A DNA stretch of 64,000 bases from Arcicella rosea (GTDB taxonomy: Bacteria > Bacteroidota > Bacteroidia > Cytophagales > Spirosomataceae). The stretch spans positions 186,001-250,000 of the forward strand of contig NZ_JACHKT010000001.1 in NCBI RefSeq assembly GCF_014204325.1, written 5' to 3'. The notes beneath the pieces were generated by a model. It searched no databases. It worked only from the letters and a program-made list of their open reading frames with translations, and was not told the origin of the DNA. The position numbers and the translations under genes were made by a program. Shown piece after piece: positions 20,591-21,440 of this stretch (its first letter is position 1; every line of letters starts with the position of its first letter).

Positions 20591-20925
20591 CGCAGGATGG
20601 AGCAGTAGGTAGCTCGTTGGGCTCAAGTTATTGTTAATTGAGAATTTTGAAAATTACTTTATCAAAGTTTGTACAATCAATTTGCATGAGGGCTGCGTAG
20701 AAAGAAATTTTTACGTGAAAGTTTGTCAAATTCGGGGAACCCTTTAAGTATGGCAATCCCGAGCCAAGCCTTAGAAATAAGGAAGGTGTAGAGACTGAAT
20801 GGCAGATACCTTAACGACTTAGGTCGAAGGTAAAGAGACAGTCCAGACCACAAACCAGTAGGGTAGCGAAAGCTATAGTGGTAAGCATAACCCAAAGGTC
20901 ACAGGTTCGAGTCCTGTTCCTGCTA
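20591..20925 (+). tRNA. Initiator tRNA-fMet(CAU), interrupted by a group I intron
   Basis: Exon 1 (20591-20623) gives the 5' acceptor strand CGCAGGA, D-arm (GAGC / GCTC) and anticodon 5' stem to U33. Exon 2 (20886-20925) gives CAU, the 3' stem, variable loop, T-arm (ACAGG TTCGAGT CCTGT) and TCCTGCT plus discriminator A. Joined, they make an exact 73-nt cloverleaf. Initiator hallmarks are present: no Watson-Crick pair at 1-72 (C and U) and three consecutive G-C pairs in the anticodon stem. CCA is not encoded. Splicing is required for function. The intron lies between U33 and the first anticodon base. Promoter and terminator flank it. Confidence 0.93.
20624..20885 (+). ncRNA. Group I self-splicing intron in tRNA-fMet
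   Basis: 262 nt without an internal gene. Core pairings are visible: P4 TCGGG/CCCGA (20732-20736 / 20758-20762), P6 CCTTA-GAAA-TAAGG (20769-20782), P7 GACTG/CAGTC (20793-20797 / 20839-20843), P8 TACCTT/AAGGTA with an inner CGAC/GTCG (20807-20832), and P9 ACCAC/GTGGT closing a TAGC-GAAA-GCTA hairpin (20847-20882). The segment AATCCCGAGCCAAGCC resembles chloroplast and cyanobacterial tRNA introns. The exon ends in U and the intron in G, as the class requires. A candidate guide GGCT at 20691-20694 pairs with exon GGCU through a U-G wobble. By host and core I infer subclass IC3. Confidence 0.93.
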
Positions 20926-20933
20926 CACAGAGT

Positions 20934-20970
20934 AAAGCCAATTATTTGATATTCAAGTAATTGGCTTTTT
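20934..20970 (+). terminator. Intrinsic terminator after the tRNA-fMet gene
   Basis: 11-bp perfect stem (aaagccaatta / taattggcttt) with a 13-nt loop and a following T tract. It lies 9 bp after the tRNA and only 14 bp before the endonuclease ATG. Confidence 0.88.
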
Positions 20971-20984
20971 TGTTTTTATTTTAG

Positions 20985-21440
20985 ATGAGAGAAATGTTAA
21001 ACACTGACACAAAACTCAAAGGGGATATTGCTGAACAGGCAGTTATCCTTCAAGCTTTAAAAAAAGGTTGGAATATTTTGAAGCCGATTGGAGATAGACT
21101 CCCTTATGATTTAGTTTTTGAAATCGAAGGCAGCTTTATCAAAATTCAAGTAAAAAGTGCTTGGTTTGATACAAAACGACAAAACTTTGTTGTTGATACT
21201 CGAAGAACTAAGACGAACAGAAGAGAAATGTTGAGGGAAAAATATAGTGAATCAGATTTTGATTTTGCCATTATTTATCTCGAAGAAATACAAATTTTTT
21301 ATATTATTCCTGTCGGAGTATTTATTAGTTATAGCTCTGAAATTCATTTAGTTGAATCAGAGAAGAGACAAAGAAAACCTAAATCTGCTGATTATCGTGA
21401 AGCATGGCATTTATTGAATTCTGATTCGGTAAATCAATAA
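20985..21440 (+). CDS. PD-(D/E)XK endonuclease, I-Ssp6803I-like; candidate homing endonuclease for the tRNA-fMet intron
   Basis: A 151-aa protein. GDIAEQAV (E17), RLPYDLVFEIEG (D42) and IKIQVKSAW (Q55, K57) give an E-x24-D-x12-QxK active site of the PD-(D/E)XK nuclease fold. Size and spacing agree with I-Ssp6803I, the homing nuclease encoded inside the Synechocystis tRNA-fMet intron, whose target is the intronless tRNA-fMet anticodon region. Here the gene lies outside the intron, 60 bp after the tRNA and behind its terminator, and 28 bp before era. No own promoter is seen, so expression may be read-through. A second ATG three codons in is possible. The family assignment is by memory of motifs; a role in restriction or repair is the alternative. 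Confidence 0.75.
   Translation: MREMLNTDTKLKGDIAEQAVILQALKKGWNILKPIGDRLPYDLVFEIEGSFIKIQVKSAWFDTKRQNFVVDTRRTKTNRREMLREKYSESDFDFAIIYLEEIQIFYIIPVGVFISYSSEIHLVESEKRQRKPKSADYREAWHLLNSDSVNQ

Follow-up and report, generated by a model that had tools for sequence, protein, structure and literature searches.

The endonuclease associated with tRNA-fMet in Synechocystis PCC 6803 is listed as a PD-(D/E)XK enzyme (PMC1995217) and is placed in P1 by the table of a review (PMC3073962). In cyanophage S-PM2, psbA contains a group I intron, the gene of the free-standing endonuclease F-CphI adjoins it, and the intron blocks self-cleavage (PMC6083498). PMC3984707 reviews collaborative homing as a pathway by which mobile introns arise, and names two phage systems.

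The locus described here belongs to a window of 64,000 nucleotides (i.e., the whole stretch of DNA analysed) from Arcicella rosea. The host gene is the same as that of the cyanobacterial fMet intron with I-Ssp6803I. The cyanobacterial introns examined (in a comparison data set without Synechocystis itself) share the U33|C34 site and the GGGC guide element; L093, L097, L101, L116 and others have a related core, placed on one core tree with that of the window. The locus differs from the Synechocystis PCC 6803 intron in that: (i) the endonuclease is encoded outside the intron and after a terminator; (ii) the host is a member of Bacteroidota. As in the F-CphI/psbA system, a group I intron is present in a gene and a free-standing endonuclease gene adjoins it. 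Unlike in that system, bacterial chromosomes are concerned, the host gene is a tRNA gene, the enzyme is of the PD-(D/E)XK type with homologues also inside the same intron, and protection and cleavage are here presumed. Judged from sequence comparison, the locus is probably a two-part mobile element, i.e., a chromosomal collaborative homing pair of intron and flanking endonuclease.

Exons, intron and initiator tRNA

The 5' exon (20591..20623, + strand, 33 nt) runs through U33 and was delimited from the sequence and by exon comparison with other fMet genes. The 3' exon (20886..20925, + strand, 40 nt) runs from C34 to the discriminator A73 and was read from the sequence; it gives a 3'-half match to RF00005 (27 bits, below cut-off). 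Both exons are free of damage. The joined exons, read from the sequence, form a tRNA of 73 nt in which C1 and U72 are mismatched, the anticodon stem is GGG/CCC and the anticodon is CAU; this is exactly the initiator tRNA claimed by an earlier, sequence-only reading. The same reading expected standard tRNA finders to miss the gene. For ARAGORN this is right, since no tRNA (0) is reported over the whole window by default; with introns allowed, the split gene is reported but misnamed tRNA-Leu(CAA).

The intron (20624..20885, + strand, 262 nt) ends with a G. The covariance model RF00028 matches 20650-20861 with 75.7 bits (gathering score 50, E 2e-17) over its full length (1-253/253, Rfam), and this is the single match at E<=0.001 in the whole assembly. 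A plain MFE fold (z −4.8) was discarded as proof of structure, because it cannot draw a pseudoknot; the helices were therefore tested by comparison. The pairings of the window intron were followed over 73 distinct fMet introns among the matches listed, and three values were recorded for each helix, i.e., the percentage of cells paired, the number of cells changed on both sides, and the percentage paired when the pairing is slid by 1-3.

The region from P3 to P3' (20722..20806, + strand) contains P4, P6 and the 5' strand of P7, and the following region (20807..20882, + strand) contains P8, the 3' strand of P7, and P9 with P9.1. The values are: P2, 92.5% paired, 210 cells changed on both sides, 23-56% when slid; P3, 100%, 49 and 25-69%; P4 (20731-20763), 96.8%, 9 and 14-75%; P6 (20764-20786), 100%, 1 and 2-50%; P6a, 95.2%, 98 and 40-64%; P7 (5' strand 20793-20797, 3' strand 20839-20843), 100%, 41 and 8-47%; P8 (20807-20832), 89.5%, 99 and 40-48%; P9 (20847-20882), 84.7%, 17 and 15-76%; the GAAA-capped P9.1 within P9 (20864-20875), 99.7%, 37 and 5-72%. 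P3 and P7, i.e., the catalytic core, are thus fully paired with changes on both sides, while P6 is fully paired but almost invariant. The slid controls are below the real pairings, yet they reach 69-76% for P3, P4, P9 and P9.1. P5 as drawn is paired in 53.4% of cells with no change on both sides, and reaches 97% when slid by one; the drawn P5 is off by about one base. The insert thus has a conserved P3-P9 core with a P7/P3 pseudoknot, and the group I intron proposed from the sequence, with P4, P6, P7, P8 and P9 pairings, is supported both by RF00028 and by the comparison of the 73 introns.

The U before the 5' splice site and the terminal G, both proposed by the same reading, are in place (U33 and G20885), and U33 pairs with a guide G (U33.G20691); U and guide are partly fixed by the search pattern. 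The proposed internal guide sequence GGGCU (P1; 20690..20694, + strand) pairs with exon GGCU 20620-20623, including the U33.G wobble, and with intron C20624. A first P1 candidate, a CUCAA/UUGAG hairpin, gives no U.G pair and was replaced by this guide. GGGC(U/G/A) is found 36-38 nt before the P3/P4 motif in 73/73 distinct introns among the matches listed, an invariance that is, like that of the exon letters, partly due to construction, because cores were picked by GGGC shortly before the P3/P4 motif, first exons were sought as GGGCU-ending (exon GGGCT being in the search pattern) and 3' exons as CAUAACC-starting. G is the last intron base in 77/77 usable loci among the matches listed, loci with GGGCT immediately before CATAACCC having been put aside as tandem copies. 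The comparison of exons and the terminal G thus place the insertion between U33 and C34. From these features, the intron is predicted to be self-splicing.

RF00005 gives 39 matches at E<=1 in the whole assembly, i.e., the 3' half of the split gene, a 20-bit partial match and 37 matches above cut-off. ARAGORN readings of all 37 contain no initiator. Two genes with a CAT anticodon (L010 and L021) were rejected as second initiator, having neither the 1-72 mismatch nor the GGG/CCC stem. The intact initiator pattern, with <=2 mismatches, is also absent from the assembly. The split gene had been suspected to be the sole initiator tRNA, and a search for an intronless copy had been proposed; RF00005 and the pattern search agree that the draft assembly has none. 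It should be noted that this draft has 77 contigs and that tRNA-Ile(GAU) and tRNA-Ala(UGC) are missing from the RF00005 matches; the claim is therefore limited to the only one found, and a further copy may be located in unassembled repeats.

The same draft state and missing tRNAs would suit an artefact of assembly, or a tRNA gene that is dead while the true initiator tRNA is encoded elsewhere. Such an explanation is hardly credible, since the exons are undamaged and the same arrangement is found in independent genomes, including Spirosoma sordidisoli and S. fluviale (L156, L202). Moreover, in a sample of 150 genomes of the host's family (Spirosomataceae), the intact initiator pattern (<=2 mismatches) is found in 134/150 genomes and in 0/10 of those with the intron (p 6.8e-12). 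Six of the 150 have neither the intact pattern nor the fMet intron.

Distribution of the intron

RF00028 matches are present in 36/150 family genomes. Reading of the exons gives four host genes: fMet (10/150 genomes), tRNA-Leu(UAA), tRNA-Ile(CAU) and tRNA-Arg(UCU). The introns of the last three are like the fMet intron in being group I introns of the anticodon loop in the same bacterial family. They differ from it by their sites (U34|A35, U36|A37 and U34|C35, respectively), and several have internal ORFs with HNH-like motifs (L034, L036, L047, L049, L057-L061, L065, L072 and L075). Of three such ORFs run against Pfam, one gave a weak HNH_3 match, below cut-off. The tRNA introns of a single family are thus of four kinds, with different enzymes. 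PDDEXK_5 ORFs of distant relationship (24-29% identity) were also seen within tRNA-Arg(UCU) or tRNA-Leu(UAA) introns (L257, L259 and L260, read by ARAGORN with introns; Pfam was run on the L257 ORF only).

At least 115 stretches were obtained when public genomes were scanned for split fMet genes. Adding the 10 family loci to those listed gives 125, of which 77 are usable with both exons. Four repeats were dropped (L157, L163, L171 and L184, equal to L073, L037, L069 and L050, respectively), leaving the 73 distinct introns. The other 48/125 loci are interrupted by the end of a contig or locus, are variant or truncated tRNA copies, or are tandem copies.

According to record titles, same-site introns among the matches listed belong to Bacteroidota or its subgroups, Cyanobacteria, Nitrospirae, Omnitrophota, Methylomirabilota, Actinomycetota, Chloroflexi, Desulfococcaceae, Armatimonadetes, Chlamydiae and Melainabacteria, plus one further Deltaproteobacteria record. 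Single phylum labels may be wrong, because many records are metagenome bins. The rarity implied by the sequence-only reading is thus contradicted: the same intron is present at the same site in 10/150 family genomes and in records labelled as ten phyla besides Bacteroidota, Cyanobacteria and Melainabacteria being counted among the ten. No account of fMet introns in Bacteroidota was found in the open-access literature. This type of fMet intron is not new, and the intron alone adds a member to a known kind.

Some fMet-like 5' halves read GGGCTCATAA and then depart from the tRNA (L096, L103, L107, L110, L148, L174, L180 and L198); their hosts are Chitinophagaceae, Aureispira and other Bacteroidota records. 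Each may be a truncated copy or an attachment site, or may mark a different point of insertion.

The flanking endonuclease gene and its position

An ORF overlooked by the earlier reading (20985..21440, + strand) is located 59 nt downstream of the tRNA, on the same strand; its first codon may be the ATG at 20994. It matches PF11645 (PDDEXK_5) with 168.8 bits and is homologous to PDB 2OST over residues 8-145 (E 4.2e-61). We take 2OST, whose entry name is putative endonuclease, to be the structure of I-Ssp6803I, the homing endonuclease that belongs to the tRNA-fMet intron of Synechocystis, and E17, D42, Q55 and K57 to be its catalytic residues. E17, D42 and K57 are invariant in 39/39 sequences and Q55 in 38/38. 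Homology and active-site residues, with this assignment assumed, thus give an enzyme of the I-Ssp6803I type. Its gene is outside the 262-nt intron and not in the P1 loop, the place expected for that type. Pairwise dN/dS values of the endonuclease are 0.05-0.19 where computable, many dS values being saturated. The flanking endonuclease thus looks to be under purifying selection and appears functional.

Between tRNA and endonuclease gene, an intrinsic terminator is predicted (20934..20968, + strand; 16 pairs and a T tail). The region contains 2 terminator-like sites vs. 0.5 in shuffles, and comparable hairpins with T-rich tails were seen by eye in other flanking loci. A sigma-70 promoter scan found 2 sites vs. 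3.8 in shuffles.

Among the matches listed, the endonuclease is downstream of the tRNA for 25 of the 73 distinct introns and inside the P1 loop for 12; inside remnants are present in 5. For the other 31/73 it was found at neither place, although 5 of these 31 have <600 nt available after the tRNA. The intron thus persists without endonuclease, as in Fibrella (G056, L073), where the endonuclease is absent from the whole genome.

The 25 flanking copies among the matches listed are all on the strand of the tRNA and belong to Bacteroidota (14), Cyanobacteriota (8: Nostoc, Calothrix, Tolypothrix and another Nostocales record) and Omnitrophota (3). The frame is uninterrupted in 19/25 and broken or partial in 6/25. 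The distance is 62-108 nt in 23/25, and 191 and 274 nt in the remaining two. An endonuclease homologue was also seen upstream of a split fMet gene of Omnitrophota, on the opposite strand (L139:2438-2863).

On the protein tree (39 rows, a sample from the matches listed), 7 switches between the inside and the outside position are required; with well-supported branches only, at least 5 changes are needed for the outside label and at least 4 for the inside label. On this tree L104 and L133, cut by contig ends, were scored inside and L211 (G029) outside; L206 (G052) and L139 were kept apart; L201, L151 and L160 were entered with X at stops; the partial copies L090, L037, L114, L099, L119, L132, L152 and L188 were left out. 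The intron tree (73 rows, among the matches listed) needs 8 changes, with L043 (G052) scored as having none though its endonuclease is elsewhere, and likewise L139, whose homologue is on the opposite strand. Compared with shuffles, both labels are clustered on the protein tree, and on the intron tree the outside label only, not the inside one. The Nostocales outside copies form one clade in a group that is otherwise inside. A near relative of the Spirosoma outside copies is L152, an intron of Hymenobacter that has a remnant inside.

A wider sampling of endonucleases gave 7/390 genomes of the order and 5/395 of the phylum, with four weak rows (24-29%) in three genomes. It added G391 and G738, where the endonuclease gene is inside the split fMet gene (the 5' exon of G738 deviates from the search pattern); G252 is the same DNA as L197.

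The same endonuclease gene being found in the P1 loop of related introns, it has changed sides several times. Since the trees are unrooted, the direction of the moves is not settled, and repeated acquisition from other sources would resemble a move. On balance, the evidence leans toward a natural series of mobile-intron formation on chromosomes, with at least 4-5 moves between the P1 loop and the place behind the terminator in different phyla, selection keeping both as classical or collaborative homing. No account of such a pair, chromosomal, in a tRNA gene and with homologous endonucleases in both positions, was found among the open-access papers listed. The combination of the fMet intron with an I-Ssp6803I homologue that is encoded outside it and has repeatedly shifted position represents a new variant.

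Co-occurrence, transfer and homing

In the family sample, the endonuclease is present in 10/150 genomes, i.e., in 9/10 intron genomes vs. 1/140 others (Fisher p 1.2e-12); this association could be due in part to shared descent within the family. In the intron genome G066 the endonuclease is broken, in two frames with stops. The sole carrier of the endonuclease without intron (G029) has an intact tRNA with the endonuclease, containing an in-frame TAG, 72 nt downstream. None of the 150 family genomes has an uninterrupted endonuclease together with an intact fMet gene.

These counts bear on a rival reading, in which the flanking gene homes independently from its intergenic place (intronless homing) and shares the tRNA target by chance, the intron being a benefiting bystander. 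The terminator that parts the endonuclease gene from the tRNA, the G029 arrangement and the free-standing relative of L271 (see below) are in its favour. It is nevertheless very unlikely: an active enzyme beside an intact target is expected to cut its own chromosome, and the family sample contains no genome with such a pair. This reading departs from the collaborative homing pair mainly in emphasis.

The locus ABC transporter - fMet - Era allows comparison of sister species. Both insertions are present in G000, G036 and G066, while G065, G088, G001, G037 and G078 have an intact fMet gene followed by Era, without endonuclease. G077 and G053 have an intact fMet gene after the ABC gene, with no Era next within the stretch; the loci of G097 and G105 are at contig ends on one side. 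Such orthologous loci with neither intron nor endonuclease, the coupled presence of the two parts and the purifying selection on the endonuclease all argue against a vertically inherited, immobile group I intron with a passenger gene next door that has no role in intron spread. That reading, which is unlikely, gains from the 31/73 introns mentioned above and from the intron tree, where introns group largely by phylum (among the matches listed). It gains also from genus g1, where G000-G052 identities are 88.5% for the intron, 79.8% for Era and 87.3% for AtpD, i.e., with no clear intron excess over AtpD.

G028 and G052 give a different picture from that expected of an immobile intron. The two are from separate genera, and the genes beside their tRNA differ. 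Their nucleotide identity is 98.5% for the intron, 87.2% for the endonuclease and 95.5% for the tRNA-endonuclease spacer, and 48/48 aligned bases just upstream of the tRNA are identical; the housekeeping genes Era and Der reach 77.4% and 80.4% (AtpD could not be compared, G028 having no true match). The likeness of intron and endonuclease thus exceeds that of housekeeping genes. Contamination was rejected as its source, the gene beside the G028 tRNA having 80% protein identity to the G052, G065, G000 and G036 copies. Intergenus transfer rests on this one pair, which appears as one clear case. Similarity continues beyond the endonuclease (83-93% over 300 nt; L229:3394-3820, L225:2300-2621), so that the transferred piece may exceed the pair. 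G036-G028 show an excess for the intron (95.4%) and none for the endonuclease (81.1% vs. 81.7% for Der and 78.2% for Era).

The endonuclease of G052 is on another contig, behind a short tRNA 3'-end copy and beside a gene of the phage integrase family (PF00589, 34.5 bits). An integrative element would have entered the 3' end of the intron-bearing tRNA-fMet and parted the tRNA from the endonuclease gene. The apparent element is located at L225:3042-4694 and L226:3724-4598.

As to vehicles, plasmids gave no match, and the phage collection gave 7 records, all <37% identity. A contig of a viral collection has a free-standing I-Ssp6803I-like ORF in a tRNA array (L271:2998-3572, 56% identity over the best segment). 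Its 3' end overlaps a tRNA-Met(CAT) gene with an anticodon stem unlike the usual GGG/CCC. A viral contig of this type is a possible vehicle for transfer.

The collaborative homing pair would work as follows. The group I intron, whose core is conserved, interrupts the fMet transcript after U33. It would most likely excise itself by guanosine attack at the U33.G of P1 and ligation of the exons at the terminal G, and its excision would restore the one initiator tRNA that was found in this genome. The I-Ssp6803I-type endonuclease, by its homology, most likely cuts intron-free tRNA-fMet across the anticodon region. The intron splits this target in its own host, which would thus be protected, and repair of a cut allele would copy the intron and the adjoining endonuclease gene jointly. 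The free-standing gene is indeed located beside the intron-containing gene that homology designates as its target. The intron may protect its host; as to co-occurrence, no uninterrupted enzyme accompanies an intact target in the family sample, the G029 enzyme containing a stop.

These results suggest that translation initiation in these species depends on a ribozyme, carried by a gene that default tRNA annotation (ARAGORN) overlooks. The joining of intron and endonuclease into one mobile element has so far been argued from few phage cases (PMC3984707). In the loci compared here, which belong to several phyla, homologous endonuclease genes are found both within and beside homologous introns of the same tRNA gene, and remnants as well as empty sister loci were seen. 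Cultured bacteria therefore offer a direct test of the sequence of events and of protection by the intron.
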